A DNA stretch of 64,000 bases. It comes from Halosimplex litoreum. GTDB lineage: Archaea; Halobacteriota; Halobacteria; Halobacteriales; Haloarculaceae. Position numbers and translations under genes: made by a program. Within the stretch, counting starts at the first letter, position 1. Each line of letters starts with the position of its first letter. Below are positions 1,204-42,332 of the stretch, piece by piece. The DNA lies in assembly GCF_016065055.1 (NCBI RefSeq), contig NZ_CP065856.1, forward strand, positions 124,001 to 188,000, given 5' to 3'. A model generated the notes under the pieces. The model saw nothing but the letters and a program-made list of their open reading frames with translations. It searched no databases and was not told where the DNA came from.

Positions 1204-1463
1204 TCGGTCGCGTCGTCGGTCTCGAGTGCCTGCGCTCGACCGGGGCAATGCGGGTCGTCGTGAGTGAACCCCCTCACGACCAAAGCGATAGAACGGAAGG
1301 TGACACCGCGCTCGGGCGCGCCGGTTGGATAAGACTCCTCGAGAGAGCGAAACCCTACGGAGAAGCCGCTAGTGGGTATAATGAAGTGGGACCGCCGAGG
1401 TGAGCGAGTCGCTTTCGGAGGGAGTCATCCCAACGGTCACAGTGGTGTTCCTGTTCCAGTGGT
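1204..1463. other. Intergenic region containing the left element boundary
   Basis: No open reading frame with coding character is seen here. The host-derived part ends at the attL copy (1387-1399). The element side then continues to the integrase stop codon at 1464. Confidence 0.5.
1387..1399 (+). repeat. attL: displaced copy of the tRNA-Pro 3' end
   Basis: TGGGACCGCCGAG, identical to 9309-9321. Read on the minus strand it is the acceptor and T-stem end of tRNA-Pro. The integrase gene ends 65 bases inward. Confidence 0.85.
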
Positions 1464-2540
1464 TCATTCGAGGTAGCTACGTCGCGTTTCCATCCGCTTC
1501 AGCAGATCAGGCTGATCGTAGTGAGTGCGAATGACCTCTGGCGTGGCATTCACGCGCTCAGCGAGTACCTCAGGTGGCCAACCTTCGTCACGATGATTTG
1601 TGATCGAGCCTGTCCGTATCCGGTGGGGTGAACGAGCTGACGGACAGCGCGACTCATAGCCATGTTCACGGGCTTCGCAATCTTCCGGGTCACGATCGTG
1701 CGGGCAAACTCCATATCGGCACGGTTGGGTGATGATATTGAACCGGGAGCGAATCGCTCCCTTCGACATTCGACCCGTTCCCTTCTGACTGGAGAAGAGA
1801 GGTTTCCGGCCGAATTCATCTTCTACGTCCGGTCGAGAAACTTCGATGTATTCCCGAAGTAGCTCACCGATCTCTTCGGAAAGGCCAACCGGTCGCTCAC
1901 CATCTTCCTGATTCTTTAGAGGAGTATCTGAATCCGGACGGTGCCGGAAGTAGATAAACGGAACTTCAACGCTTTCCAGCTCTTCCGGATCGATGTCGTC
2001 CTGGTGAGCAAGTCGTTGGAGATCGTCTTCGACGAGATAGCAGTCACGTAGATCTAGCGAGCGTAGCGCGCCGAGGCGTGCGCCCGTGTGCCACGCGAGA
2101 GCAAATAGAGCGCGGTCCCGGCTAGCGTATTCGTACCTTCTGAGATTTTCAAGAATATTTTCGGCTCGCTTTGTCGATAATTTCTCTTCATTTGCCCGTT
2201 CTGCCTTCGAGAGAGTCGGCACATCCACTTTCGCCGGTAATTCCGGTGGGACAGCCTCAACATCCACACAGAATTCGAGAAAGAGTTTGATAGTCCCGAG
2301 TTGATTATTCAACGCGCTCTTGCTGAGATCATCGGCACGGCGGGCTGAATCGTACCGAAAAACATCGCGCCCTGCCAGTTCATTCAGATTTTGGATTCCT
2401 TCTTCATCGAGCCAGTCGACGAACTGGCGGACTCGATAAAAGTAGCTTTTTACAGTTTCTTCGGACTTCTCAGCCCGCTGCCGGTCGAGCCACATTTCCA
2501 TTGCCTCACGAGGGTCGAGAGGTCGGAGATCTTCGCTCAT
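1464..2540 (-). CDS. Tyrosine recombinase / phage-type integrase
   Basis: Site-specific recombinase of 358 residues with a SAM-like core-binding domain (about 8-95) and a catalytic domain (about 120-350). The catalytic residues are all visible: Arg155 in HTGARLGALR, Lys209 in TPLKN, His306-x-x-Arg309 in SPHRIRTG, His316, and the nucleophile Tyr341 in RTHYD. A four-cysteine insert (Cys274, 279, 288, 299) before the HxxR motif looks like a zinc-binding knuckle, as seen in other haloarchaeal integrases. The ATG at 2540 (MSEDLRP) is preferred to an upstream one at 2579. It lies next to attL and is divergent from the regulator at 2790. It presumably integrates and excises the element. Confidence 0.92.
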   Translation of the reverse strand: MSEDLRPLDPREAMEMWLDRQRAEKSEETVKSYFYRVRQFVDWLDEEGIQNLNELAGRDVFRYDSARRADDLSKSALNNQLGTIKLFLEFCVDVEAVPPELPAKVDVPTLSKAERANEEKLSTKRAENILENLRRYEYASRDRALFALAWHTGARLGALRSLDLRDCYLVEDDLQRLAHQDDIDPEELESVEVPFIYFRHRPDSDTPLKNQEDGERPVGLSEEIGELLREYIEVSRPDVEDEFGRKPLFSSQKGTGRMSKGAIRSRFNIITQPCRYGVCPHDRDPEDCEAREHGYESRCPSARSPHRIRTGSITNHRDEGWPPEVLAERVNATPEVIRTHYDQPDLLKRMETRRSYLE

Positions 2541-2670
2541 GTATTCACCCCAGGTAACGGGCGGCCGCAGTCGACACAACAGGATTCGAGTATACCCCCT
2601 TCCGTCCGAATTTGGCGGGTTTCCAGTGTATCGGGTCGAATCTGTAATTTAGACCGTCTCGTCATATAAT

Positions 2671-2712
2671 ACAGCTAAATGGCTGTTACCATAAAGCTAT
2701 CCCTAATTAGGG
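2671..2712. promoter_or_regulatory. Divergent promoter/operator region with palindromes
   Basis: Between the integrase and the regulator gene lie two symmetric sites: ACAGC-TAAATG-GCTGT (2671-2686) and the perfect 12-bp palindrome CCCTAATTAGGG (2701-2712). The region is AT-rich, with a TATA-like ATATAAT just upstream of the first site. They are good operator candidates for the winged-helix protein encoded at 2790. The assignment is inferred from position. Confidence 0.5.
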
Positions 2713-2789
2713 AACGTTTTTTGGAGAAGGGCAATCAGTGGGGCTTGAACCGGGGTCACTTTTTAGAGAGAGGGACTGTACTGGAGAAT

Positions 2790-3236
2790 ATGGACGACGA
2801 ACCTGACCGGATAGACTGGCTCACCGACATGGACAAGCAGATATTGGAAGTTCTAAGTAGTGAGCTCATCCTGACCCCCGCAATCATCGCAGAGAACATC
2901 GGTCGATCTCGAAAAGGAGTTTCTAACCGTATCAATTCGCTACAGGCAGGTGAGCTAATCGAGAAAATTGACCGCGGCAAGTATCGAATAACCGATGAAG
3001 GCCGATCAGTTCTGGAAAGTTTCAACAAAGAGAAGATTCGGGGAATTCGGTTAGATATAACACAGCGAAGGCTAATCGAGGAAGATTTAGGAGTTACCAG
3101 AGAGGAATACTTGAGGCAAGCCCGGAAGGAGTACGAGCAGATAAGAAAGGATGAAGATATTGAGGAGCCTTTTGAAGAAGCCTTCGAGCGTGTAGAATCC
3201 CGTCTTCGAGAGGATGCAGAAGAAGAATCCAACTAA
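2790..3236 (+). CDS. PhiH1 repressor-like winged-helix regulator
   Basis: A 148-residue DNA-binding protein. Residues about 5-70 form a winged helix: the opening RIDWLTDMDKQILEVL, a recognition-helix region SRKGVSNRINSLQ and a wing ending in YRITDEGR. This is the pattern of the haloarchaeal PhiH1 repressor-like family. The C-terminal half is charged and predicted helical (LREDAEEESN at the end) and may dimerise. The ATG at 2790 follows a GGAG sequence and is preferred to one at 2679. As the only regulator in the element, divergent from the integrase, it is the likely switch between the integrated and mobile states. Confidence 0.75.
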   Translation: MDDEPDRIDWLTDMDKQILEVLSSELILTPAIIAENIGRSRKGVSNRINSLQAGELIEKIDRGKYRITDEGRSVLESFNKEKIRGIRLDITQRRLIEEDLGVTREEYLRQARKEYEQIRKDEDIEEPFEEAFERVESRLREDAEEESN

Positions 3237-3262: not shown

Positions 3263-3823
3263 TTACATATCCAGGTTGATTTTTTCAATAAATACTTCAA
3301 CTGTCTTTGTGATAGAATCAAGATCGCTGAGTCCGGTGCAGAGAAGTTTTCCACTGGAGAATATGAGAATGACCGCGTTTGACTCAGAGTCACGGTAAAT
3401 CAGGCCTGGGAACTGCTCCGGTTCATACTCGATGCGTTCCAACCCAAGCTGCAGCGCCAATGCTTCGAGATCCACATTCCTATCGAGCGCCGTTGTTACA
3501 ACAATATTGCTTACTTCAGACTCAGGTGTAAAATCAAACTTTAGTATATCCTGCATCACTGCATTCACGCGCCCGACTACATTTTCGAAGTGTTCGACAG
3601 AATCGACTCCAGTGATTGAGCAACGTCCGGATCGATAGAATGCGACATACGTATCATCCGGAGCAAAATATGTTTGTAGCCAGTGATTCTCTGCGGGTTC
3701 ATAGGTGGAGTTGGTAATTTCACTTCGGGTAGCCATTGTGTCGGCTAACTCGCCTAGGTCGAGCTCCTGACGATAATGAACCCACCCCACTACGTTGACA
3801 ACTTCTAAACCCAAGTCATTCAT
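3263..3823 (-). CDS. Element-encoded TATA-binding protein (TBP paralogue)
   Basis: The 186-residue length matches archaeal TBP, as does the two-fold repeat. The second repeat carries the clear family signature: YEPEQFPGLIYR, then AVILIFSSGKLLCTG. The first repeat (about 8-90) is divergent but retains AFYRSGRCSITG in the equivalent place. TBP binds TATA boxes and recruits TFB and RNA polymerase. It lies 48 bases downstream of the restriction-modification gene on the same strand, so the two are probably co-transcribed. Its AT-rich sequence and place inside an integrated element mark it as horizontally acquired. It could redirect transcription towards element promoters; that role is inference. 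Confidence 0.88.
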   Translation of the reverse strand: MNDLGLEVVNVVGWVHYRQELDLGELADTMATRSEITNSTYEPAENHWLQTYFAPDDTYVAFYRSGRCSITGVDSVEHFENVVGRVNAVMQDILKFDFTPESEVSNIVVTTALDRNVDLEALALQLGLERIEYEPEQFPGLIYRDSESNAVILIFSSGKLLCTGLSDLDSITKTVEVFIEKINLDM

Positions 3824-3871
3824 AATAGGATAAGTGTCACCATGAGTATTAACGACGATGGAGAGAGAATC

Positions 3872-6796
3872 TTATGAGAAATCGTCTAATGTGCTGACTC
3901 CGCCCTCATTTTCTCCGCCGAAGTATTCAGATGACCATTCTACTGTAGCATCAAGGTCTTTTAACATGACTTCGGAATCAAATTCACCCTCTAATCGCTG
4001 GTGTGTCATCACTTTCCTCATTGTGGATAGCTCTTCAGGAGTGATGGAATCAAGCCCAACTGCATCAAGAACAGCCTGATTCAGCTGTTGTTCTGCATCA
4101 TCCTCTCCGTTCAATAGAGCATTTGTCGCCGTTTTAATTGACTCTATGTGTTCTTGTTCAAACTCCCGAATATCTGGAACGGGAACGCTCTCTAATTCAT
4201 ACGTCATCAACTGCAATGCGCCGTTCCCCTCTACCCGGCCCCAACATTCGAGTAAAGCTCCGTAGAGGCTCGAATTCATGAGCCCGATGACGACTTTAGA
4301 ATCAATACCTCCCTTGACATAGACACAGTCTACTGCATTTGTTGTAAGCGCTCTCGCACGATTTGAAACCGTAAAGAGTCTCCATTTGAAGAATTTAGGA
4401 TGGAATAACTCTGGCGCTTGTTGCTCACCTAAATCGAACCAAACTCCTCTGTTTGCACAGGTGTTTCGTTTATGAATCTCATCATTTTCACCTTCATTAA
4501 TATACTGGAGTAGAGAATCATATCCATCGCGCTTAAGCGAGGATCGCACGTCTTCTTCTAGTGTCGTATCGGTCCCGAATTTTTTGGTTCGATTTTCCAC
4601 TTTCGTTACATAGTCATGGACATCAAGAATATATTTATCAGCATCTCCTTGCTCAAATACTTCCGAGTCCATTCCTTTAATGCTCTTTACTACTGGTGAC
4701 AAGAATCGCTTGTCAATACCTCTTCTCTCTGCTTCATCTTGATCCAGAATAAAGAATTTATTAGCGCCTGTAACCGGCCCACGAGATATGTCTACAAAAT
4801 TACTAAGGGGGACAAAGTCATCTCGCTCAATAAGGTTAATTAATTTGAGTGGAGCATTCAAGTAGTAGTTGATTTTTTTCGGGCCTGTATCGTGAAGGTA
4901 TTCTTGTCGAACTCCTAGCATACGATAGTTCGGGCGTTCACGAATGTCTATTGGTTCCTGATCGAGCGACATACCAAACGTCACAGTTTCATAAAGATCG
5001 ACAGGTTCCATCTCTTCTTGAACACGAATGAATTTCGTTACGGTTTCTCGTCGAGTTTCTTCATCCTCACACCGCTCAATTAGCAATAAGCAGGTATCTA
5101 CAAATGCATCTTCGAACGCTCGTTCTGCAAATCCGACAACCGCATGGATTTGGTAATGGTCAAATAGGAACTGCTGGAAATCCATTCCATATCGGACACT
5201 CAACCATTTCGGCGGAATGACGAACCCGAGCCGTCCTCCGTCTCTGAGGAATTGCGTAGCATGTGTAACGAAGTATACGTACGCATCGCTTTTCTTACTG
5301 AGTTTCTTCGACCCATCAAGATAGGGTGATGCATTTTCTGGACCGAACCGTGAAAGATGCGCTCTGAATGCGTCTTTATCAGGTATGTCACGGTTCCGGA
5401 TATACGGCGGGTTTCCGACGATCCCGTCGAAGTACCCGACTTCCCCAGTATCCCGGTTATCTAGCCGCGCAGATGTCAGCATTTTCGAGTCTGGTTCGAT
5501 GGCGAAGAATGAGGCGTGGTAAGCGTGTAGTGTATCAATTTCCTCTTCGATGTTTTGACTCGCAAGGTTCAACGCAGTGAGATGCAGCGGGAATTTATTG
5601 ATATCTACAGCGGTGATCGAGTCAAGAATGTCTTGATGCGTGGCGTCCGGGTAGTCACGTTTCAAGTCGGTGTATACTTCGACGGGGAATGTTCCACTAC
5701 CAGACGCTGGGTCAAGGATTTCAGGAAGATCGTATTCTGCTTGTGCGTCGAGAACCCATTCCGAGACGGCATCAGCGATCGTCGGTGGTGTGTAGTACTG
5801 ACCGAGCTTTTTACGTTCAGTTTTCGGAATAAGTTCTTCGAATACGTCACCTAGAAGATCTTCGTCGATTCCAGAAATTTCGCGTTGCTCAATGTTTTCA
5901 GCGAGTGATTGGATATTCTGTAGTGTTTTCTTATTGTGTGGGAACTGTTCGAACAAATCGCTATTTCGGAAGATCGGTTCGTAGTCGATCTTTTCCATGA
6001 TTTCGTCGAATCGCCGGCGGATGTGTTCATCGAGAAAATCGAGACTAGAAACACCGACGAGTGATTGAAGTTTGTTCCCATCGCTTGGTTTGATTGGATC
6101 TGGTGTTTGTTCACGGACGACTTCGTAGAACAGAATTTTATTCGTTAACAGGTACGCATATTGTTTCGCGGCGGTTTCTAACTGTTCATCCGTTGGTAGA
6201 GCGGTGAAGTCGTTTTCTCGAACCCAGCCGTCAAACAGATTGATGAATTTCTCATTACTTTTGTATTTTTGCTGAGCGAGCTCTTTGTATGCCGGCCAAA
6301 TCGTTGAGTGGAATGTTCGGAGTAACCCAACAACTTGTTCTTTCTTTTCCTGTTCAGGAAGTTTCCCATGCTGATAGAGATGATCAACGCCGGAGAGGAG
6401 TTGCGGAACGAATCCGTCAAGTTCCGGGTCAGAGAGGTTGATCGGGCGGAGGTTTGCGTAGTTGTAAGGGACGTTCTGTAGAGTGATTTCTCCGTCGTAG
6501 TTGAAGAGGTAAAAGTCATTACTATTACACGTTGCGAAAAAGTCAGCGCCGATGTCTCGCGTGTAGTCGCGTGCCTGTTTTATTACGTCTTTATCATATG
6601 GGGAGATATCGTCTCGTTTGACCTCGATAACGAGACTACCAGTAAGGTTACTATCAATATGAATGTCTGCCTGTCGCCCCTCAACATCCTTCTCAATAGT
6701 GACCTCCGAGAACTTTGTATCATTATTCTCAACATATCGATAAAGGGCTGAGTAGAGGAGACTATGGAATTTTTGTTCTTTTGGTGTATCAGACAT
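3872..6796 (-). CDS. Type IIG restriction-modification enzyme
   Basis: One 974-residue polypeptide combining nuclease, methyltransferase and specificity regions. The N-terminus has a PD-(D/E)xK-like site (Asp44 in RQADIHID, Glu58 and Lys60 in LVIEVKRD). The N6-adenine methyltransferase core has motif X GQYYTP (332-337), motif I DPASGSGTF (362-370) and motif IV NPPY (462-465). The C-terminal third (about 680-940) fits a target-recognition domain. Such enzymes both cut and methylate and need no separate partner. Codon use and base composition are AT-richer than the host. It starts 164 bases downstream of rep and is followed by the TBP gene. The recognition site cannot be predicted. Confidence 0.85.
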   Translation of the reverse strand: MSDTPKEQKFHSLLYSALYRYVENNDTKFSEVTIEKDVEGRQADIHIDSNLTGSLVIEVKRDDISPYDKDVIKQARDYTRDIGADFFATCNSNDFYLFNYDGEITLQNVPYNYANLRPINLSDPELDGFVPQLLSGVDHLYQHGKLPEQEKKEQVVGLLRTFHSTIWPAYKELAQQKYKSNEKFINLFDGWVRENDFTALPTDEQLETAAKQYAYLLTNKILFYEVVREQTPDPIKPSDGNKLQSLVGVSSLDFLDEHIRRRFDEIMEKIDYEPIFRNSDLFEQFPHNKKTLQNIQSLAENIEQREISGIDEDLLGDVFEELIPKTERKKLGQYYTPPTIADAVSEWVLDAQAEYDLPEILDPASGSGTFPVEVYTDLKRDYPDATHQDILDSITAVDINKFPLHLTALNLASQNIEEEIDTLHAYHASFFAIEPDSKMLTSARLDNRDTGEVGYFDGIVGNPPYIRNRDIPDKDAFRAHLSRFGPENASPYLDGSKKLSKKSDAYVYFVTHATQFLRDGGRLGFVIPPKWLSVRYGMDFQQFLFDHYQIHAVVGFAERAFEDAFVDTCLLLIERCEDEETRRETVTKFIRVQEEMEPVDLYETVTFGMSLDQEPIDIRERPNYRMLGVRQEYLHDTGPKKINYYLNAPLKLINLIERDDFVPLSNFVDISRGPVTGANKFFILDQDEAERRGIDKRFLSPVVKSIKGMDSEVFEQGDADKYILDVHDYVTKVENRTKKFGTDTTLEEDVRSSLKRDGYDSLLQYINEGENDEIHKRNTCANRGVWFDLGEQQAPELFHPKFFKWRLFTVSNRARALTTNAVDCVYVKGGIDSKVVIGLMNSSLYGALLECWGRVEGNGALQLMTYELESVPVPDIREFEQEHIESIKTATNALLNGEDDAEQQLNQAVLDAVGLDSITPEELSTMRKVMTHQRLEGEFDSEVMLKDLDATVEWSSEYFGGENEGGVSTLDDFS

Positions 6797-6960: not shown

Positions 6961-8802
6961 CTAAGACCACACATCAATGATTGGTGGGTCCTTGTCCCGA
7001 TTTACGACTGGCATATCGTTACCGTCATCAATGCAGTCCTCTACGATTTCGAGGTTTTGCTGGCGATCGCCCAACTCGTCGCTTGGAAGGTCCCAATACG
7101 CATACGCGCCGATATAGTCGACGATACACTGGAACGCGGTTTCTTCTGGGAGCGTTGAACGCACCTGCGGCTGTTCCACATCCAAGATTGTCCGCTCTAT
7201 AGCGGCATCGAGATCATCGAGGTCATCCCACTGCTGACGCGCGAGAGCATCCCGTATCTCTCCTTCGCTCGCTTTTTGTACAGAGTCAAGTGAACACCAA
7301 CGGACGGCTTCGCGCACGTCAGGATCCTGCGTATGATCGTTCGTGTCTATCCCTTTCGTGATCGCTTTCGAGCAGGACCAGAAGCGCCGGTTCGTCGCCC
7401 AGTATAGTGCGAGCTTCCATGTCGCCGCTTTGTCAGCGTACGACTCCCGGTCGTCATCGCCCGCCTCGAAAGACTCCGTGGCGTCGAGTAGCGAACCGAA
7501 TGTCGCACTCAGATATTTGCCTAAGTATGCGCCAGCAGTCGATTCCATTTCGTGGCTGTCGTCACCAAACTCGATCAACTCGTGTGACCGGGTCCGTTCG
7601 CGTACCCAGTCTTCACCGTTATCGTGGTCGCCGAAACGGTACCAGTCAACGAAACCTTCGTCACTCTGAAATTCCGGTTCTAGATCGTCGAGGTCGTCGC
7701 GATACGTCAGGGGGTACACGTCGACGATCTCGCCCTGTCCGTAGTCGGCCCACTTTGCGGCAATCTCCTGTTTGTCGCATAACCATGGTAGTCCGTCGGA
7801 GTCTCGTTCTGGTACGTCGAAGAACAGCACGTGTAGGTGCGGATAGCCCTTCTCAGTGAACTCCAGCGCCTTAATATAGTCCGGACGCTCTCGTGGCCGC
7901 CCAGTAACGTCGTCGGAGAGATCAGGCCGCCAGCCTGGGACGATGGAGTCGCGGGTGTCGGCTTTGGTTGCCGGGTCAGAGTCAAAATACGATAGCAGAC
8001 GGTTGAAATTTTCGTTGATGGTATCGATGCCGTCGAGTAGTGACGCTTGGCGCTTCGGATCAGTCGTTAGAGTTACCAATACCGCATTGTCTGCATGGTC
8101 GTATCCGTACTCCAGTGCATCATTGAATCGTGCGAACTGCTTGGAAACGCGGCCTTGGTCGTTAAACCGAGTCTTGTAGTCCTTCGTCATCCGTCGGGTC
8201 GTCTCGCCGCCAGTGCGATCTACGAAGTGAACATCGAATAGCAGTTTGTAGTCCTTGATGCGATTGAGATAGGATGTAAAACCGTCTTTCAGTAACTCGC
8301 GTACGGTATCGTCTACAGAGTCTACGCAAGAGAGGTAATTTCGGAGGAATTCCCGGTCGTACGTTAGACCCTCTGTCTGAGCTGTTTGAGTAATGCCTTC
8401 TGTAATCAAGTCAAGAAGGCCCAGGGTGGGGGTTACGAAGAGAACCCCTGATGACCGGGATTTCCGCACGTAGGGGTCATCTGGCTCTTCAAGATCGTTG
8501 ATGAACCGATATGCAAACTGGTAGTCCGGATCAGAGCCTTCGACACGTTCGCAGTTCTCTGGAGTGACACCCTTCACAGCATACGAGACGACGTGAGACA
8601 GCGGTGTACCCTCAGGATGGGCCGCTATGAACTTCGCTATGCGTACGCGCTCCTCGTCGCGTTCGGTCAGAGAACCGTCTATGAGCTGACCGTAGCCGAG
8701 GAGGTCGCGCTCCTCCAGGAGGTCCGCTAAGACGGGAGTGTTACATCTGTCAGTAAGTTCGAGCCCGCCCAGGTGCCCTGGCGGGTCGACACGACTCCTC
8801 AT
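6961..8802 (-). CDS. HUH-family rolling-circle replication initiator (Rep)
   Basis: A 613-residue Rep-like endonuclease. The metal-binding HUH motif is PHLHVLFF (321-328, His322 and His324). The nicking-tyrosine motif is GAYLGKYLS (424-432: Tyr426, Lys429, Tyr430). A beta-strand resembling motif I, AVLVTLTTDP, is at 240-249. Large haloarchaeal Rep proteins of plasmids and pleolipovirus-like elements share this layout. The N-terminal 200 residues look like an extra domain of unknown role. The protein would nick the double-stranded origin and prime rolling-circle replication of the excised circle. The gene is more GC-rich than its TBP and restriction-modification neighbours. The hairpin-rich region immediately upstream is the candidate origin. 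Confidence 0.8.
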   Translation of the reverse strand: MRSRVDPPGHLGGLELTDRCNTPVLADLLEERDLLGYGQLIDGSLTERDEERVRIAKFIAAHPEGTPLSHVVSYAVKGVTPENCERVEGSDPDYQFAYRFINDLEEPDDPYVRKSRSSGVLFVTPTLGLLDLITEGITQTAQTEGLTYDREFLRNYLSCVDSVDDTVRELLKDGFTSYLNRIKDYKLLFDVHFVDRTGGETTRRMTKDYKTRFNDQGRVSKQFARFNDALEYGYDHADNAVLVTLTTDPKRQASLLDGIDTINENFNRLLSYFDSDPATKADTRDSIVPGWRPDLSDDVTGRPRERPDYIKALEFTEKGYPHLHVLFFDVPERDSDGLPWLCDKQEIAAKWADYGQGEIVDVYPLTYRDDLDDLEPEFQSDEGFVDWYRFGDHDNGEDWVRERTRSHELIEFGDDSHEMESTAGAYLGKYLSATFGSLLDATESFEAGDDDRESYADKAATWKLALYWATNRRFWSCSKAITKGIDTNDHTQDPDVREAVRWCSLDSVQKASEGEIRDALARQQWDDLDDLDAAIERTILDVEQPQVRSTLPEETAFQCIVDYIGAYAYWDLPSDELGDRQQNLEIVEDCIDDGNDMPVVNRDKDPPIIDVWS

Positions 8803-9308: not shown

Positions 9309-9321
9309 TGGGACCGCCGAG
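9309..9321 (+). repeat. attR: 3' end of tRNA-Pro
   Basis: TGGGACCGCCGAG, identical to the attL copy at 1387-1399. It overlaps the tRNA 3' end, so integration leaves the tRNA intact. Confidence 0.85.
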
Positions 9322-9379
9322 ATTCGAACTCAGGTCCGACGCACCCCATGCGCCGAGGATACCGCTACCCCACGGTCCC
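9310..9379 (-). tRNA. tRNA-Pro, anticodon GGG
   Basis: On the minus strand the cloverleaf closes fully. The acceptor stem is GGGACCG/CGGTCCC. The anticodon stem GGCGC/GCGTC closes the loop ATGGGGT, which gives anticodon GGG after the invariant T33. The T-stem CTGAG/CTCGG closes the loop TTCGAAT. No CCA is encoded and no intron is seen. It lies 50 bases downstream of the cbf5/truB stop and serves as the integration site of the neighbouring element. Confidence 0.95.
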
Positions 9380-34318: not shown

Positions 34319-35428
34319 TCAGTCGAGGCCATCTAACACCGCTGCGTAGTTCGACACCAGCGTTTCGACAGTATACTCGGTCTCAAAGGCCGCGCGGCAC
34401 TGCTCGGTGACGGCCGCTCTAAAGTCCTCGTCGACGACGATCCGTCTCACTTGTTCGGCAAGCTTCTCCATCGATCCGTCGGCAAAGCCAGTCCACTCGA
34501 CATCGATGTCGATGAACCGGCTGGGATCAACATCAAGGCTTGCGACTGCAGTTTCGGCACGCCAGGCCTCCAAAAACGTGTTCGGGAATCCCTCGACCGC
34601 CGCGGTGTTCACGTATGCGAGCGCCCGATCGTAGTAGTCGTGTATCTCTCCGGGTGGGACCGTGCCGACGTACTTTAGATTCGGAGTGTCCTCGATGCGT
34701 GCCGTCAGTCGCTGTCTGTAAGCATCAGGCGCCTCCCAAGGTCCGATCATCGTAAACTGAATTTCAGGACATGCGGACGCGAGGTCGACGAACAAATGCG
34801 GACGCTTCTCGTCGGGTTCCAGCCGCCCGACCCAGAGAACGAACTCCCGCTTCGATTGAGCCATGACCTCTTCGGCTGCAGGGTAGCCGTTCGGGACAAC
34901 AATTGACGTGGTACCATACTCCTCAGCGACGACACGTTGCTGGCGGTTCGTCTGCGCGATAATGGCGTCCGCATGAGTGAGCGCAGCCCGGTAGAGTCGT
35001 CCGAACGGACCGCTAACGTACCGCTCGGGGGTCTCGATGTGACCGTCGCTCGCAACGTGATAAACCCATTTCCCGCCTAATAATCGCGCCAGTGCCCGGA
35101 CAACGCTGGCGAGCCGCGGGTTCCCACGGGAAACATAAATATCCGCATCGGCAGCCCGCATCGCCGCCGCCAGCCGTCGGAGCTGTCCGGCCTGCTCTAT
35201 CGGGTTTGCCACAGTTTCCGGTGTGTACGCCCGGTGGAGGGTCACGCCGTCGTGGACGACGCGTGACGGCTGTCCATAGTCACCTACTATCATGTGGACA
35301 TCGTATCTCTCGGCCAGTTCCCGACTCAAGAGGTAGAACTGGCGCTGTGCACCGCCGCCAGCTATCTCCGGGTCGTCGACGAAGTAGCCGTACGCCGACA
35401 GTGAGACGAAACAGAGCCGCGTACTCAT
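34319..35428 (-). CDS. GT4 family glycosyltransferase
   Basis: A 369-residue GT-B glycosyltransferase. It shows GGGAQRQFYLLSRELAERY near the N-terminus, VPNGYPAAEEV, WVGRLEPDEKRPHLFVDLA, and the E-x7-E motif in VEGFPNTFLEAWRAE. Its ATG overlaps the stop codon of the methyltransferase gene upstream (ATGA on the minus strand), so the two are translated together. Substrates are unknown. Confidence 0.87.
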   Translation of the reverse strand: MSTRLCFVSLSAYGYFVDDPEIAGGGAQRQFYLLSRELAERYDVHMIVGDYGQPSRVVHDGVTLHRAYTPETVANPIEQAGQLRRLAAAMRAADADIYVSRGNPRLASVVRALARLLGGKWVYHVASDGHIETPERYVSGPFGRLYRAALTHADAIIAQTNRQQRVVAEEYGTTSIVVPNGYPAAEEVMAQSKREFVLWVGRLEPDEKRPHLFVDLASACPEIQFTMIGPWEAPDAYRQRLTARIEDTPNLKYVGTVPPGEIHDYYDRALAYVNTAAVEGFPNTFLEAWRAETAVASLDVDPSRFIDIDVEWTGFADGSMEKLAEQVRRIVVDEDFRAAVTEQCRAAFETEYTVETLVSNYAAVLDGLD

Positions 35429-36150
35429 CGCTTACACCCGCGGCTCGGCTCACGACACTCGTACGCCGCGTGCGGATACAATAACTCGAACAGCCACCCG
35501 GCTGGCGGGAACCGAGTGAGTAGCGTAATCAGGAGCAGGAGCTTCGCAAACACCTTCGTCCCTTTCCCCAGTGTGTAGACTAGGTCGTCGACATCTCCAA
35601 GGAAGATCGGTCGGTACGCCACTTTCTGACGGGGCGTCACGTACTCGACCGATTCGAAGTGCGCGTGCACTGCTCGGCGTGCAATAACCGGCGACAGGTT
35701 ATAGACGTAGTCTCTGTAGTAGCGTTCTTGATCCGAGTCGAGGAGAGACTGTGCGAGACGGAGACCGAGCGGCCGCGGCAGAAGCGAGTAGTACCCGGGC
35801 GGGCTGTGTGGCCGGTCCGGAAACAACCGGTTCGGTAAGTCGAGGAAGGCCGCGCCCTCCGGTTTCAGCACGCGGCTAATCTCGGCGACGAACGCCCTAG
35901 TCTGTGGGATGTATTCGAACACCTGGCAACAGGAGACGTAGTCGAACGTGTCCGCCTGGAACGGGAGCGGGAACCCGTCGGCCCGGACGTACGCCAGTCC
36001 CTTGTGTATAGGCTGGAGTTCGATGTTGACCGCGACGACGTTCGCGTCTATGTGGGCGGCTTTGTTTCCGTGTTTACTCCCAGGGTCGAAAACTCGATCG
36101 TCCGGGACAACTCGGGAGTCGATATCCCGTCGTAGCATTTTATTCCACAT
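35425..36150 (-). CDS. SAM-dependent methyltransferase (type 11)
   Basis: A 241-residue methyltransferase-like protein. FDPGSKHGNKAAHIDANVVAV replaces the usual glycine-rich motif I, followed by LPFQADTFDYVSCCQVFEYI and ISRVLKPEGAAFLDLPNRL, which are clear class I blocks. The C-terminal part carries a hydrophobic stretch (about 205-230), so it may be membrane-associated. It could methylate a glycan or a lipid-linked sugar. It is coupled to the downstream GT4 gene by a 4-base overlap. Confidence 0.7.
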   Translation of the reverse strand: MWNKMLRRDIDSRVVPDDRVFDPGSKHGNKAAHIDANVVAVNIELQPIHKGLAYVRADGFPLPFQADTFDYVSCCQVFEYIPQTRAFVAEISRVLKPEGAAFLDLPNRLFPDRPHSPPGYYSLLPRPLGLRLAQSLLDSDQERYYRDYVYNLSPVIARRAVHAHFESVEYVTPRQKVAYRPIFLGDVDDLVYTLGKGTKVFAKLLLLITLLTRFPPAGWLFELLYPHAAYECREPSRGCKR

Positions 36151-36238
36151 ATTACCGTATCAGTAATTGTATATTCTGCCCAAATTACATGAGAGGAACT
36201 ATATTATTTTATTTAACATCTCCAATTTCAGGTCACTT

Positions 36239-37276
36239 TCATTGTGGAGATGAAAGGATTGACCGAAGTTCTTCGGCCCGTTGATCTGTCCAGAAATGGT
36301 TCTCTTCGATTGATTCGACAGCACTCTCGGCAAACCGCTCACGACGCTTTCGGTTTTCAATTAGGTCCGAGAGACAGTCGAACCACTCTGAATCATCAGC
36401 CGGACAGTATCCATTTGACCCATCTTCAACGATCGAGGATAACATCCCGACTGGCGAGGCAACAACAGGGACCCCCATCGCTAGGCACTGAACAACGGAC
36501 GTGTACCCACCTTTTCCGCGGGTCCATTCATCGTCTGTAAGGGGCCGGATCGCGATATCGAATTCAGAGACAAGGGCCAATTCTTCGTCAAGCGACCATT
36601 CCTGGTAGAACACGTCTTTTCCGACGCGTTTCTCGAATGGGACCTGCTCGTTTCCCGCAGTCACGACGTGCAACTCAACCTCTGGATAAGTTTCGAGAAG
36701 TTCGGAAATCACGTTTTCACGTTGTTCCAAATACCACAGGTTCTCAGGATTCCCGATCCAGCCAAGAATGACAGTGTCGTCGGTTCTATGCTCCTCTAAA
36801 CGTGCTTTAGTGTACTCGTCTCTAGGGACCGAAGTCGGAAGGGTATGAATATTATCAGTGTAATCTCGGGCGTATTCCGTGAGAATAGGACTACCAGTTA
36901 TAACCGTTGAAGCCGCCTTTAGCATCTCGTTTAACATCCGGGTCCGATTTGAGGTGTCTGTCTGCTCCCACGGAGCCGACGTATAAATCGCATCGTCAAA
37001 GTCATAGATAACTTTACAAAACCGATTAAGTATCGTAACAAACCGAGAGGGAAGGAGCAACTTTTGAATATAGATAATATCGTACACCAACGCGGATAAA
37101 AGTAAATACGTAGTATATGCCGGCTTATCAACCTTCGAAAACTCAGTAAAATGCCGGTCCTTGCGGAGGTCAACGCGTGTCTCGAACGAGAGATAGGGGA
37201 GATAATTCAAAATACGATAGCGAGTACTCGCTGTCTGCTCGTCACCAAAGGCGACAAACAAGACACGGAGTGTCAT
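36239..37276 (-). CDS. GT-B fold glycosyltransferase
   Basis: A 345-residue protein with the two Rossmann-like halves of GT-B enzymes. It starts MTLRVLFVAFGDEQTASTRY, contains VIYDFDDAIY and VITGSPILTEYA, then LGWIGNPENLWYL and FDIAIRPLTDDEWTRGKGGY, and ends the fold with CLAMGVPVVASPVGM. The usual E-x7-E motif is replaced by the RGKGGYTSVVQCLAMG segment, as in some divergent group 1 transferases. The ATG at 37276 is chosen over 37309 because it opens directly into the first beta-strand. The gene is AT-richer than most neighbours. Confidence 0.78.
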   Translation of the reverse strand: MTLRVLFVAFGDEQTASTRYRILNYLPYLSFETRVDLRKDRHFTEFSKVDKPAYTTYLLLSALVYDIIYIQKLLLPSRFVTILNRFCKVIYDFDDAIYTSAPWEQTDTSNRTRMLNEMLKAASTVITGSPILTEYARDYTDNIHTLPTSVPRDEYTKARLEEHRTDDTVILGWIGNPENLWYLEQRENVISELLETYPEVELHVVTAGNEQVPFEKRVGKDVFYQEWSLDEELALVSEFDIAIRPLTDDEWTRGKGGYTSVVQCLAMGVPVVASPVGMLSSIVEDGSNGYCPADDSEWFDCLSDLIENRKRRERFAESAVESIEENHFWTDQRAEELRSILSSPQ

Positions 37277-37366
37277 ACGCCAGTAAATGATGGTCGTTAT
37301 CAAAGGCATTACGACTCCGCAGACTGAAAGGGATGATGCCGAAGCTGCAAAGGAGCATACTAAAAG

Positions 37367-38209
37367 ATGCCCTCTAAAGATATTGTAGTATATAAAGCCA
37401 TATTCGATGATTATGACATTCTCACTGATCCGGAAGTAACGTCAAACAATATTAAGTACGTCTGCTTCACTGACGATGAGAAACTAGAGTCTGTAGTGTG
37501 GGATATCAGGGTCCTCAAGGATGCTACCACTTCTCCAAACATTCATAATAGACGCCTAAAAATGAAACCCCACGAGTTGTTTCCAGAGTTTGAATATAGT
37601 GTATATCTTGATGGGAATATTCATATTGTCGGAAATATTGAAACCCTGATTAAGAGAACGATGACAGACGGTCCACTCGCGGCACCAAGTCACCCGTCTC
37701 GAGAGAGTGTGGCGGAAGAAGCCAGAAAGTGTATCGATGCTGGACTGGCTCCTAAGAACCGTGTCAATGAGCAACTTAAACGGTACCGACAGCTGGGGTT
37801 CCCCGACGAGGAGGGGCTTACCGAGAATTCGGTACTAATACGAGAGCACAATGATTCTGATGTTGTTAGTGTGATGGAAGACTGGTGGCAAGAACTCGGT
37901 ACTGAGACCGAAAGGGATCAGCTGAGTCTCCAATACACGCTCTGGAAGAACGACGTAGAGTGCACCAGACTACCAGTAGATGCCCGGTGGTCTAGTCACT
38001 TCCGTCGGTATCCCCATACGCCAGACGATTGGCGTAAGTTGTTCTGGCGGTCTTGGATAGACATATATCTCCATCGAGGACGAGGTAGCTACCGGAATAT
38101 GTTCAATTCAATATTGTACTATACAGTCATATGCAGCAATATCGTTCTACAAGACGGCCCCCTAGAATTATTAAGGCGGACGGAAAATTTTATTAGAGAA
38201 CGAGTATAG
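37367..38209 (+). CDS. DUF616 (TOD1/MUCI70-like) glycosyltransferase
   Basis: A 280-residue protein of the DUF616 family, whose plant members TOD1 and MUCI70 act in glycan synthesis. Family features are VVYKAIFDDYDIL, YVCFTDDE, HNRRLKMKPHELFPE, the YSVYLDGNIHI segment with a likely metal-binding Asp, and DQLSLQYTLWKN. The sequence is AT-rich compared with the rest of the window, suggesting recent transfer. It lies divergent from the GT-B gene and upstream of a small methyltransferase gene. Confidence 0.75.
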   Translation: MPSKDIVVYKAIFDDYDILTDPEVTSNNIKYVCFTDDEKLESVVWDIRVLKDATTSPNIHNRRLKMKPHELFPEFEYSVYLDGNIHIVGNIETLIKRTMTDGPLAAPSHPSRESVAEEARKCIDAGLAPKNRVNEQLKRYRQLGFPDEEGLTENSVLIREHNDSDVVSVMEDWWQELGTETERDQLSLQYTLWKNDVECTRLPVDARWSSHFRRYPHTPDDWRKLFWRSWIDIYLHRGRGSYRNMFNSILYYTVICSNIVLQDGPLELLRRTENFIRERV

Positions 38210-38268
38210 TGTTCTATATACGAATTCTATGAACTGGTTTCATAATGGCTTAGCATTTGGCTTGATCA

Positions 38269-38850
38269 ATGAGTAACCACAAGAAGTCGCTCAACATTGG
38301 GGCAGGTAAGAGGTCACATGCTGATATAGACCTTGATATATCTCCACTAGATGGAATTGACGTACTTGGAGATATGCATCAATTGCCGTTTGATGATAAC
38401 ACATTTTCAGAAGTCTATCTAGAACACGTACTAGAGCACTCAGTAGATGTGCTTGCGGTACTGAACGAAATTCACCGGATCTCAAAAGAAGAAGCGCTAG
38501 TGTACATACGCGTTCCCCACGGACTCACGATCCGAGGTATTCGGGATCCGACTCATGAACAGTATTTTTCGCTCAGGTCAATAGAACATTTTTGCACAGA
38601 CAACAACCTACTCCCAAGTTGGTACTTCGATAAAAGGTTCTCACTCGTCAGCGCCGAACTCAAGACAAAACAGCCGAATAAAATGACGGACGGGGGAAAG
38701 CTACAAGATGTAATTAGAAGAGTTGGGTATATATTCAATAGGGCAGTTTCAATAGTTGCAAACAAGGAACCGGAAGTGTTTGAGCCGATCGTCTCGCTCA
38801 CATCGTATATTGATATTGAGTGGAATCTCAAAGTCATATGTAAAAAGTGA
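38269..38850 (+). CDS. SAM-dependent methyltransferase-like protein
   Basis: A 193-residue protein with LNIGAGKRSHADIDLDI as a shortened motif I, LPFDDNTFSEVYLEHVLEH and LNEIHRISKEEALVYIRVPHG, which are the usual class I blocks. It is short for the class and lacks a clear N-terminal helix region. It is AT-rich and appears acquired together with the DUF616 gene 59 bases upstream, with which it may be co-transcribed. The target is unknown. Confidence 0.7.
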   Translation: MSNHKKSLNIGAGKRSHADIDLDISPLDGIDVLGDMHQLPFDDNTFSEVYLEHVLEHSVDVLAVLNEIHRISKEEALVYIRVPHGLTIRGIRDPTHEQYFSLRSIEHFCTDNNLLPSWYFDKRFSLVSAELKTKQPNKMTDGGKLQDVIRRVGYIFNRAVSIVANKEPEVFEPIVSLTSYIDIEWNLKVICKK

Positions 38851-38897
38851 TCGCACGTTTGAATTCTTTTCCCTACTTCATAGAGATTTATTTCGGT

Positions 38898-39036
38898 TAT
38901 AACGGCTCTGTTGAATAGCGGTATTGGTCGAAGTGGTCAAAATTTGAGTCAGCTTGTTAATGGCTGACGCTAGAGTTGCCAAGATCACTATCGTCTCATT
39001 GTGCCTCAGAGGCCGCTATTCAACGCGGCAGTTATA
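38898..39036. mobile_element. MITE-like element with 24-bp inverted ends
   Basis: The ends at 38898-38921 and 39013-39036 are imperfect inverted repeats. Both share TATAAC at the outside and GTTGAATAGCGG at the inside. The 139-base element has no coding capacity. Its centre has a small hairpin, GTCAGC/GCTGAC, at about 38948-38968. It lies in the 360-base gap after the methyltransferase gene. The end sequence resembles ends of haloarchaeal DDE-type IS elements as I recall them, but I cannot assign a family from sequence alone. Confidence 0.7.
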
Positions 39037-39210
39037 GCGGAATTTGAATCAACGGGAACGCTGTCTCGTGCTAGCCAGACTGCTACCCGGTGTGAATGGA
39101 AGCGGTTTGAATACATGATTGTGTATTATAATTAGTTAATATATTATAGCTGCTGATTCTCCAATTACTTATAAGTAAATACTAAGCCACATAGTATAAA
39201 TATTTTTATA
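39037..39210. other. AT-rich intergenic remainder
   Basis: AT-rich sequence between the MITE and the rfbB stop. No gene or hairpin terminator is evident. Confidence 0.4.
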
Positions 39211-40134
39211 CTATTCAATATAATGATCGTGTGTCAATTTAAGTGCGTCTTCGAACGAGTATCTTGGTTCCCAACCCAGTGCCTCAATCTTCTCAGTGTT
39301 CAACGCATATCGCTGGTCGTGGCCGGCCCGGTCGTCAACGAACTCGATCAGTTCTTCCGATGCACCGACAGTATCGAGAATCGCTTCGGTGACTTCGAGA
39401 TTTGTCCTCTCCGTTCGGGTCCCGATATTGTACACTTCGCCGAGATCACCGGTCCGCAGGACTAGATCGATCGCTCGACAGTTGTCATCGACGTAAATCC
39501 ATTCGCGAACGTTTGATCCGTCACCGTATACAGGCAATGGCTGGCCTGCACTGGCACGTTGGATGAACTTCGGGACGAGTTTCTCCGGGTGTTGTCGCGG
39601 CCCAAAGTTGTTGCATGAGCGTGTGACGATGACAGGGACATCGTGGGTCGCTTGGAAGCTTTGTGCGAGTAGGTCTGCCCCAGCTTTCGTCGCAGCGTAG
39701 GGGTTTCGGGGATGAAGAGGGTCCTCCTCCGTGAATTGTCCGTTGAGCGTCTGTCCATACACTTCGTCGGTCGAGATCTGCAGGAACCGATCGAGGTCTG
39801 TGTCTTTGGCAGCATCCAAGAGCGTCTGAGTCCCCTGTACGTTTGTCGCGACGAACGGCTTTGCTCCCTCGATGGACCGGTCAACGTGAGACTCTGCCGC
39901 AAAGTTGACGACAGCATCGACATCGTTAATGAGATCTGCCACGAGATTAATGTCGCGAATACTTCCTTCGACAAATTCATGTCTTGGGTGGTCGAGAACT
40001 CCATTAAGGTTCTGTCGGGACCCGGCGTAGGTCAACGCGTCCAACGTGACGACAATGTCGTCACGTTCATTGAGTAGGTAGTGTACAAAGTTCGAACCGA
40101 TGAATCCAGCACCGCCAGTCACTAAAACTCGCAT
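39211..40134 (-). CDS. rfbB: dTDP-glucose 4,6-dehydratase
   Basis: Second step of dTDP-L-rhamnose synthesis: dTDP-glucose to dTDP-4-keto-6-deoxyglucose. It is a 307-residue SDR with GGAGFIGSNF (7-16), LDALTYAGSRQNL, NFAAESHVDRSI, STDEVYGQ, YAATKAGAD (catalytic Tyr/Lys) and the family block RSCNNFGPRQHPEKL. The motif THVD-like region and the Asp-Glu pair after STDE support the dehydratase rather than an epimerase. The divergent promoter with rfbD is at 40160-40167. All four rhamnose genes lie within 4 kb. Confidence 0.92.
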   Translation of the reverse strand: MRVLVTGGAGFIGSNFVHYLLNERDDIVVTLDALTYAGSRQNLNGVLDHPRHEFVEGSIRDINLVADLINDVDAVVNFAAESHVDRSIEGAKPFVATNVQGTQTLLDAAKDTDLDRFLQISTDEVYGQTLNGQFTEEDPLHPRNPYAATKAGADLLAQSFQATHDVPVIVTRSCNNFGPRQHPEKLVPKFIQRASAGQPLPVYGDGSNVREWIYVDDNCRAIDLVLRTGDLGEVYNIGTRTERTNLEVTEAILDTVGASEELIEFVDDRAGHDQRYALNTEKIEALGWEPRYSFEDALKLTHDHYIE

Positions 40135-40159
40135 ACGAGTTTCTTAGCGACAGTACTTA

Positions 40160-40167
40160 TTTATATT
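40160..40167. promoter_or_regulatory. TATA element shared by rfbB and rfbD
   Basis: TTTATATT in the 52-base divergent gap. It is 20 bases before the rfbD start and 26 bases before the rfbB start on the other strand, so it could serve either or both. Confidence 0.5.
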
Positions 40168-40186
40168 ATTGCCTGGATCCTGCAGT

Positions 40187-41077
40187 ATGAACCTGCTGGT
40201 AGTCGGTGCGAACGGCCTACTTGGCAGTAACGTAATACGTGTGGGGTTGGAGAGGGGATGGAATGTCAGTGGAACGTACAACTCGGTGCGACCAAGATTC
40301 GATATTCCCCTATTACAGTTCGATCTCGAGGAATATGAGTTATTTAATCAAGTAATCGTAGAACACGAACCAGATGTAGTAGTTAATTGTGCAGCAATGA
40401 CGGATGTCAACACATGTGAGATTGAATCAAAGAAAGCTAATTTACTCAACGGCGAGGCACCGGGTGGAATAGCTGCAGATTGCAAGACATACGGCATTGA
40501 CTTTGTGCATGTCTCAACTGATTACGTCTTCAATGGCGAAGCCGATCAACCGTACGACGAAATTGCGTCGCCCGACCCGCTACAGGCGTACGGGAAATCG
40601 AAGCTAGCAGGCGAACAGGCTGTGAACCTGGAGTACCCGACCGCCCTTGTAGCACGTCTATCGTTCGTCTGGGGAATACACCGAAATACGGGAGCGCTTG
40701 CGGGCTTTCCATCATGGGTGCGCACGAAGATAAATTCCGAAGAACCGGTTTCACTGTACACGGATCAGTGGGTGACGCCAACGCGCGCCGGACAGGCGGC
40801 GGAGACGCTGCTTGATCTCGTTGAGAAGGACAGAGACAAATATTATCACATGGCCTGCCAGTCTTGTGTGACACCGTATGAGTTCGGCGCCGTCATTGCT
40901 GATCAGATGGGGAAGAACACGGACCTCCTAAGTGAGGGATCAGTGGACGAAACTGATCAGGTGGCACCTCGACCGACGTATACCTGTATGGATGTTGATA
41001 GAGTTGAGGATGCGCTCGGAAGGGAACAACCGACATTACAGGACGATGTTGATGCTGTTTGGGATAGAGTCAGCTAG
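40187..41077 (+). CDS. rfbD: dTDP-4-dehydrorhamnose reductase
   Basis: Last step of dTDP-L-rhamnose synthesis, reducing the 4-keto group with NAD(P)H. It has 296 residues, with GANGLLGSNV near the N-terminus, NCAAMTDVNTCE, STDYVFNGEADQPYDE and the catalytic YGKSKLAGE. The distal blocks RLSFVWG and DQWVTPT are also family-typical. The ATG at 40187 (MNLLVVGANG) is chosen over 40169. Its stop codon overlaps the 3' end of the small zinc-ribbon gene on the opposite strand by 4 bases. Confidence 0.92.
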   Translation: MNLLVVGANGLLGSNVIRVGLERGWNVSGTYNSVRPRFDIPLLQFDLEEYELFNQVIVEHEPDVVVNCAAMTDVNTCEIESKKANLLNGEAPGGIAADCKTYGIDFVHVSTDYVFNGEADQPYDEIASPDPLQAYGKSKLAGEQAVNLEYPTALVARLSFVWGIHRNTGALAGFPSWVRTKINSEEPVSLYTDQWVTPTRAGQAAETLLDLVEKDRDKYYHMACQSCVTPYEFGAVIADQMGKNTDLLSEGSVDETDQVAPRPTYTCMDVDRVEDALGREQPTLQDDVDAVWDRVS

Positions 41078-41253
41078 AGTCTATAGCGATCCATGTGCTC
41101 AAGAAAGTATTCTTGGGCCTCCTTGGGAAGGTTGTCGAAACGGATAATTGCCTGACAGTCCAACCCAGGACACTTCATTACCCGATTCGATTCGAGTTCG
41201 TTCGCTGCGATCACGGTTCCACAGGACGGACAGGTGTATGTTATGATCCGCAT
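41074..41253 (-). CDS. Small zinc-ribbon protein
   Basis: A 59-residue protein reading MRIITYTCPSCGTVIAAN at its start. Two pairs of cysteines, CPSC (8-11) and CPGLDC (28-33), would hold one zinc ion. The rest is a short helical tail ending in HMDRYRL. It stands between rfbD (converging, 4-base overlap) and the rfbA stop, 2 bases beyond its start, so it could be co-transcribed with rfbC and rfbA. The function is unknown; such ribbons often bind nucleic acid or protein. Coding nature is supported by the intact frame and the Cys spacing. Confidence 0.7.
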   Translation of the reverse strand: MRIITYTCPSCGTVIAANELESNRVMKCPGLDCQAIIRFDNLPKEAQEYFLEHMDRYRL

Positions 41254-41255
41254 TC

Positions 41256-42329
41256 CTAAAGCCAGAGTTGGGAGTTCTCCCCGACCACTAGACGTTGACC
41301 CTCCGGAAGTAGTTTTGCCGCACCCTCAACGGTCACGTTTTGACCAAGCAGGCTGTCGACGATTCGACCCGAAGTAGTGATCTGTGAGTCTCCGATGACA
41401 ACGCTGTTCTCGATATGGATTTCCTGAAGCGTGGTATTTGGACCAATAGATGTGTACGGTCCCACGTAGGTCCCGTTCTTGATCGTGGTGTTCTCGGCGA
41501 CGGAGACTGGACCTCGGACGACTGCACCCTCTTTTATTGTCGATGACTCCGCGAGTTCGATGCACCCCTGCGTTTCGGCGCCCGCTTCCACGATACCGCT
41601 GGTGACGAGCTCCCGCTCTTCGAGGACGAGCCGGTTGGCCTCCAGAATATCTTTGGGTTTACCAGTATCTTTCCACCACCCGGTAACGGTGTGTGAGTCG
41701 ATGGCATAACCACCCTCAAGCAGAGCCTGAATCGCGTCGGTGATCTCCAGTTCACCTCGCCAAGACGGTTTCAGGCGTTCGATAACATCGAATACCTCTG
41801 GCGAGAAAACGTACATACCGATGAGTGCAAGATTTGTCGGGGGTTCGTCGGGTTTTTCAATGAGTGCTGTAACGTTTCCTTGACTGTCGATATCCGCGAT
41901 GCCGAACTGCTCAGGGTTCTCCACTTTTTGAAGCGCGATTCCGGCACCGTACTTACCGTTCTTAAAACTCTCGACGAGTTCCACGACACCGTCTTTGAGA
42001 ATGTTATCGCCGAGATACACCACAAAGTCATCATCACCGACAAAATCTTGAGCACAACCTGTGGCGTGCGCGATTCCAAGTGGATTACCTTGAATGATAT
42101 ACGTAATCTCGACGCCGTAGCTGGACCCGTCCCCGAGGAGATCTTGAATCTCTACACGACCTTTGTTGCCGAGAACTATCCCGATCTCAGTTATACCCGC
42201 ATCCCTGAGGTCCTCAACGGCATACTCAAGTACTGGCTTGTTCGCGACGGGGACCAGTTGCTTCGGACCAGTGTGTGTGATCGGCCGGAGTCGAGAACCA
42301 GTTCCGCCGGACAACAGAACACCTTTCAT
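41256..42329 (-). CDS. rfbA: Glucose-1-phosphate thymidylyltransferase, long archaeal form
   Basis: First step of dTDP-rhamnose synthesis: glucose-1-phosphate + dTTP. It has 357 residues. The nucleotidyltransferase domain (1-235) carries LSGGTGSRLRPITHTGPKQL, YLGDNIL and IEKPDEPP. The C-terminal part (about 245-357) is a left-handed beta-helix of hexapeptide repeats (such as IKEGAVVRGPVSVAENTTIKNG), absent from the short bacterial RmlA and usual in archaeal enzymes. The gene is followed by the zinc-ribbon gene and preceded 3 bases upstream by rfbC. Confidence 0.92.
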   Translation of the reverse strand: MKGVLLSGGTGSRLRPITHTGPKQLVPVANKPVLEYAVEDLRDAGITEIGIVLGNKGRVEIQDLLGDGSSYGVEITYIIQGNPLGIAHATGCAQDFVGDDDFVVYLGDNILKDGVVELVESFKNGKYGAGIALQKVENPEQFGIADIDSQGNVTALIEKPDEPPTNLALIGMYVFSPEVFDVIERLKPSWRGELEITDAIQALLEGGYAIDSHTVTGWWKDTGKPKDILEANRLVLEERELVTSGIVEAGAETQGCIELAESSTIKEGAVVRGPVSVAENTTIKNGTYVGPYTSIGPNTTLQEIHIENSVVIGDSQITTSGRIVDSLLGQNVTVEGAAKLLPEGQRLVVGENSQLWL

Positions 42330-42332
42330 TGA

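Follow-up and report, generated by a model that had tools for sequence, protein, structure and literature searches.

Bacterial C proteins are small helix-turn-helix (HTH) regulators that are encoded with restriction-modification (R-M) genes and move with them. Proteins with a TATA-binding protein (TBP) domain are also found in bacterial conflict systems of the TOTE/TALON type, in which they can hardly be basal factors (PMC12458937, citing Aravind et al. 2022). Among haloarchaeal TBPs, the TbpC-like proteins lack the N-terminal phenylalanine (Phe) pair and were described by Becker et al. 2014 as 'nonfunctional or very specialized' (PMC4230888). TbpC was reported to be untranscribed in laboratory growth (PMC4230888), and the deletion of tbpC in NRC-1 gave no apparent phenotype (PMC2121645). 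A search of open-access full texts returned no description of an association between haloarchaeal TBPs and defence genes. The family-wide association described below therefore appears to be undescribed before.

Here we describe a TBP gene in a stretch of 64,000 nucleotides from Halosimplex litoreum (contig NZ_CP065856.1, positions 124,001 to 188,000; the window). The encoded protein resembles the TbpC-like TBPs of PMC4230888 in having lost the N-terminal Phe pair while keeping the C-terminal pair, and in being separate from the main, TbpE-type TBP.

The TBP gene and the element that carries it

The gene lies in a 7.9 kb element that is integrated in a tRNA-Pro gene and bounded by a 13-bp direct repeat (Table 1). 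The initial annotation had placed the TBP inside an integrated element, 48 bases downstream of a type IIG enzyme. Both statements hold. The two genes share the minus strand and are 48 bp apart, and the element is delimited by the repeat pair, its tRNA-Pro end, the integrase and an uninterrupted site in a genome of the same genus (G006, L284). In that genome the matching order is phosphoesterase, approximately 190 bp, tRNA-Pro and TruB.

Table 1. Features of the integrated element (positions in the window)
Feature	Position	Strand	Evidence or remark
att direct repeat, far element end	1387..1399	+	TGGGACCGCCGAG, identical to 9309-9321
Tyrosine recombinase (integrase) of the element	1464..2579	-	Pfam Phage_int_SAM_1 1e-8, Phage_integrase 1.2e-5
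Winged-helix protein, convergent with the TBP	2679..3236	+	weak wHTH Pfam matches, all below cut-off; best HVO_A0261_N 6.6e-6
Divergent (TbpC-like) TATA-binding protein	3263..3823	-	186 aa, complete; Pfam PF00352, AF2 model and tree
Intergenic TBP leader	3824..3871	-	conserved GTTAATAC(T/C) ~30 nt before the ATG
Type IIG restriction-modification enzyme	3872..6796	-	974 aa; Pfam Eco57I, N6_Mtase; PADLOC
Putative replication-initiator-like protein of the element	6961..8802	-	weak Pfam REP_ORF2-G2P and Rep_1 matches, below cut-off
tRNA-Pro(GGG), integration target	9309..9379	-	ARAGORN; 3' end 9309-9321 is the second att copy, TGGGACCGCCGAG

The type IIG gene looks intact. It encodes a single chain with nuclease and adenine methyltransferase motifs (PD-(D/E)xK-like D44/E58xK60, LDPASGSG and NPPY), which PADLOC matched to MTase_II (7.6e-55) and REase_MTase_IIG (6.5e-32). 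In the closest relative (G005, L063:4932-9448) a 474-aa ORF, apparently inserted, interrupts the IIG gene, and the adjoining TBP ORF is still open. The winged-helix gene of the element could encode a second regulator. Elsewhere in the window, 34319-42797 is a region of low GC (0.42-0.53 at ~36-43 kb) with glycosyltransferase-like, dTDP-sugar-type and ABC-transporter ORFs; it is probably a surface-glycan island unrelated to the TBP element.

The product of the TBP gene matches PF00352 over both repeats (E=8.9e-34; 115.6 bits against a cut-off of 22.9). Its AlphaFold2 model has a complete fold with a pLDDT of 92.7, and aligns structurally with the archaeal TBPs 1mp9 (Z 20.9 over 176 residues) and 1ais (Z 19.5). 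The host genome encodes two TBPs, the main TBP and the window TBP, and the two are 35% identical.

A well-kept second repeat and a divergent first repeat had been noted at the outset, and the key residues agree with that description (residue numbers are those of yeast TBP, whose sequence was checked at nine key positions). The second-repeat Phe pair (F190 and F207) is present, and the C-terminal stirrup, EYEPEQFPGLIYR, carries the TFIIB/TFB-contact residues E186 and E188. The first-repeat pair (F99 and F116) is replaced, with Tyr at the F116 position, such that the window TBP, like the TbpC-like subfamily, does not have all four intercalating Phe. The N-terminal-half stirrup is altered to ENHWLQ. 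This motif is conserved within the window clade, so the first repeat is regarded as remodelled and not decayed. With the DNA and TFB contacts of the second repeat in place the protein looks functional, and the inactivity that a loss of DNA-contacting residues would have shown is not indicated.

The same pattern recurs in a set of 70 divergent TBPs. E186, E188, Phe190 and Phe207 are each kept in 65-68 of the 70 (E186 in 65, E188 in 68). Tyr takes the place of F116 in 55/70, and Phe occurs at the F99 position in only 8/70. Where dN/dS could be computed it was approximately 0.06-0.17, with the constraint on repeat 1 usually at least as strong as that on repeat 2.

Divergent TBPs and methylation-based defence genes

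In the tree, the window TBP falls within a 19-row clade (support 100/98) with TBPs of another genome of the genus (G005) and of two genomes from another family (G353 and G211). It groups with the TBPs of L063, L064 and L065 and away from the main TBP of its host, the placement that the initial annotation had asked a phylogeny to decide. Main and main-like TBPs, including those from outside the haloarchaea, share a separate 40-row fork. The distribution over hosts points to horizontal spread.

The NRC-1 TBP at 112 kb of pNRC100 (VNG_RS12735), which from accession order is taken to be tbpC, is among the divergent TBPs. Its gene and the end of a helicase gene overlap, and DNA methyltransferase genes precede the helicase gene. 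Both this TBP and the window TBP are outside the 40-row main-like fork, with the bootstrap unsettled and the deep order of the divergent subclades unsupported. TbpD of NRC-1, the deletion of which changed 413 genes, was considered as the defence-linked TBP and rejected. Accession order and the tree indicate TbpC, so the TbpD transcriptome is not used as support here.

The neighbourhoods of TBPs were surveyed in regions of up to 20 kb gathered by TBP sequence alone, and defence genes were scored within 6 kb. TBPs with less than 47% identity to the main TBP were called divergent, and those with at least 50%, accessory ones included, main-like. An R-M-type gene was found within 6 kb of 70/78 divergent TBPs with the first reference set, in which some references came from divergent-TBP loci themselves (most of them PADLOC-checked). 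The extended set raised this to 76/78, a count that is partly circular because methyltransferases from initially negative loci joined the set after PADLOC or Pfam confirmation; 70/78 is the stricter figure. One locus, L200, is positive with the extended set alone and is uncertain. By comparison, none of the 26 main-like TBPs had such a gene within 6 kb, and none of the 34 control windows elsewhere on the same contigs had defence genes; both groups were screened with the same tblastn references.

The result was similar in 43 genomes picked blind to the neighbours, where 15/19 divergent TBPs were linked with the first set and 17/19 with the extended set (Fisher p=2.5e-10), against 0/25 main-like TBPs. 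In a second draw, of named genomes and partly overlapping the first sample, all divergent haloarchaeal TBPs on long-enough contigs were linked and no main-like TBP was. The peptide patterns used to scan genome contigs also match ordinary TBPs, and the matches listed served only as a second sample. The association between divergent haloarchaeal TBPs and defence genes is thus strong. The link suspected from a single element is real and far wider than that element.

The 78 divergent TBPs are associated with type I systems (25), DISARM-like systems (21), small IIG enzymes (9), BREX (6), SNF2 plus IIG pairs (5), large IIG enzymes (4) and other systems (6); two have none. The closest relatives of the window TBP (73-78%) come from three genomes; in two of these they adjoin the same IIG gene, in the third an SNF2 and IIG pair. 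TBPs at 52-62% are mostly found beside type I hsdM-S-R-SprT operons and otherwise beside IIG or SNF2 plus IIG genes, and the more distant ones in DISARM-like and BREX type-5-like loci. The correspondence between TBP clades and R-M type is only partial, and partners have therefore been exchanged; in G211, for example, a TBP close to the window type adjoins another system. Relatives of the window IIG enzyme also occur without a TBP (82% and 47% identical). The description of the TBP as cargo of an element is accordingly retained in part: the gene is mobile, but its partners are R-M, BREX or DISARM cassettes on chromosomes, plasmids and viruses alike and not the element generally.

Neighbours within 100 bp of a divergent TBP gene are on the same strand in 32/36 cases. 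Many divergent TBP genes are convergent with the defence operon or point away from it. At least two divergent TBPs occur in 14/61 loci. In many defence loci there are two divergent TBPs that differ from each other and frequently belong to distinct subclades (L035, L036, L066, L067, L069, L074, L081, L185, L221 and L236). TBP 'C' of Halorientalis litorea (L216 / L278) lies between DUF1156/DUF499 methyltransferase-type genes and McrBC. A Methanomethylophilus TBP (L105), 60% identical to the haloarchaeal main TBP, is 4.7 kb from an HsdM-like gene; it is the sole case among 62 non-haloarchaeal loci and probably due to chance.

Two haloviruses carry comparable pairs. HRTV-9 encodes a type IIG enzyme (gp40) and a TBP (gp39) 16 bp apart on the same strand, and HJTV-2 encodes a TBP with a methyltransferase and an Eco29kI-type nuclease (gp106-gp101). 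As in the window, the TBP is beside a defence gene, although the viral TBPs belong to other subclades and the setting is a virus and not an integrated element. No mention of the linkage was found in the main text of the paper describing these haloviruses.

Promoter motifs, a candidate mechanism and its alternatives

Part of the leader upstream of the window TBP is conserved. The block GTTAATAC(T/C) is common to L063 and L065 and has the form GTTTATACTT in L064, and the flanking bases differ. An unusual TATA-like motif is often found approximately 33 nt upstream of the start of window-clade TBP genes (GGACTTATACCC, GGACTTTTCCCC and GTCTTTTTACTC), with C at positions where ordinary haloarchaeal boxes carry A or T. 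Its likelihood was 43.3; ten shuffles reached no more than 36.4. The window gene has the TATA-like site GTTAATACT at -30, which the fitted clade motif did not pick. Main TBP promoters, in comparison, have the textbook GAACCTTTATAA. These features suggest that window-clade TBPs may regulate themselves with an altered specificity. No clear shared motif emerged from the pooled promoters of 61 non-redundant divergent TBPs (the likelihood was 53, and 28-44 for shuffles, with low information and scattered positions). The initial annotation had proposed a search for non-standard TATA boxes upstream of the element genes; the unusual motif is often found before the window-clade TBP genes themselves, but it is not consistently present before the partner operons of the clade. 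Scoring defence and control genes for canonical TATA boxes was uninformative because the controls scored no better than shuffles. Co-linkage of a TFB gene with divergent TBPs was not seen as a rule, which leaves a private TBP-TFB pair unsupported.

The reading that we favour, and place narrowly on the probable side, is that the window TBP serves as a portable, promoter-selective basal factor that would act together with the TFB of the host in expressing or timing its defence cassette. It would travel with a DNA-methylation-based cassette, here the type IIG enzyme. The two Phe of the intact C-terminal half-saddle would enter the upstream half-site of a TATA-like element, and the conserved EPEQF stirrup would recruit host TFB. 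The remodelled N-terminal half, with the first Phe replaced, the second usually Tyr, and ENHWLQ, would read an altered downstream half-site. A window-type TBP would then prefer sites of the TTAATAC or TTATACCC type over the canonical TTTATA. The subset of promoters served or occluded would include that of the TBP itself and presumably that of the cassette, which could be expressed or timed (methylation, then restriction) in any host with a usable TFB and RNA polymerase. Several observations weigh against this reading: the inconsistent presence of the motif before the partner operons of the window clade, the orientation of the many TBP genes that converge with the defence operon or face away from it, and the reports that TbpC is untranscribed in laboratory growth (PMC4230888) and that its deletion has no apparent phenotype (PMC2121645). 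The bacterial TOTE/TALON TBPs, hardly basal factors themselves, make a direct part in defence possible as well (PMC12458937).

Instead of a transcription factor, the TBP might be a subunit of the defence apparatus that bends or senses DNA and so loads the methyltransferase, helicase or nuclease or directs it to its target, in the manner of a TOTE/TALON TBP. The tight, operon-like packing of close same-strand neighbours at many loci would suit such a subunit, and so would the bacterial conflict systems described with a TBP domain (PMC12458937) and the fact that DNA is the common target of R-M, BREX and DISARM. A single subunit role is nevertheless hard to reconcile with partners as structurally unrelated as type I, IIG, BREX and DISARM-like systems, which agree better with a general function, for example in the control of expression. 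Nor is the TBP an obligatory enzyme subunit, because IIG relatives as close as 82% do without it, and nearly all members keep a TFB-contact stirrup that a non-transcriptional role does not require. For these reasons a transcriptional role is the likelier, and the subunit role seems unlikely to us, if by no means far-fetched. A transcriptional role could also be a negative one, in which the TBP occupies TATA boxes or captures TFB non-productively and so silences a toxic cassette or viral transcription. The lost N-terminal Phe pair could mean non-productive binding, and TbpC was reported to yield no transcripts during normal growth (PMC4230888). The retained TFB-binding surface, however, fits recruitment at least equally well, and we consider a repressor or decoy improbable.

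Two further explanations would remove the functional tie or the function. Accessory TBPs and defence genes might simply have been gathered into the same defence islands, as all are mobile and the TBP clades track R-M type loosely (G211 again). Such hitch-hiking is very improbable given the empty same-contig windows and a main-like set that includes accessory TBPs, also often plasmid-borne, with no linkage among them; the spacing, moreover, is often below 100 bp, and the pairing recurs in many lineages and two viruses. The TBP might otherwise be a degenerating, functionless paralogue, as was raised in 2014 for TbpC-like proteins, whose N-terminal half has lost its intercalating Phe pair (PMC4230888). 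To this we give almost no credence, because the dN/dS values, the strong conservation of the rebuilt first repeat within the clade and the confident, complete model all make decay unlikely. As judged from sequence, one half of the protein appears to have been retained for DNA and TFB and the other rebuilt and then conserved. Purifying selection, together with a C-terminal half whose TFB-binding surface is intact and an N-terminal half that is remodelled yet conserved, argues for a working factor, in keeping with the promoter-selective role favoured above.

Comparison with known systems

The 2014 description of TbpC-like TBPs (PMC4230888) did not include genomic context. The present analysis links these TBPs to defence loci, shows them to be under purifying selection and places the window TBP in a distinct ENHWLQ subclade. 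This suggests a likely role for a haloarchaeal family that has had no assigned function, and TbpC-like genes may be used as a sequence marker of unrecognised defence loci. If the proposed mechanism holds, a general transcription factor has been captured by immune cassettes, which would give the R-M, BREX and DISARM systems of archaea a further level of regulation. More tentatively, and somewhat short of what we would call probable, the methylation-based defence systems of haloarchaea (type I, IIG, BREX-5 and DISARM-like) may have repeatedly gained dedicated TBPs, in which one half-saddle is kept to engage the TFB of the host and the other has been rebuilt to read private promoters. This would amount to a parallel initiation system for immunity genes, and an archaeal counterpart of C proteins and alternative sigma factors.

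The TOTE/TALON systems (PMC12458937) resemble the haloarchaeal loci in having a TBP-fold protein in a defence operon. They differ in being bacterial and in having TPR-CSD partners and effectors, whereas the haloarchaeal TBPs keep an archaeal TFB-binding surface and have methylation-based partners. No TPR-CSD (TPR-OB) gene is present beside the window TBP, the neighbours being the IIG, wHTH, integrase and Rep-like genes. Like the window TBP, the C proteins are small DNA-binding proteins that are encoded with R-M genes and travel with them, and a timing role is proposed for both. The C proteins are HTH regulators, whereas the window protein has the TBP fold of a general factor that would need TFB, and the likeness would thus be one of proposed role only.
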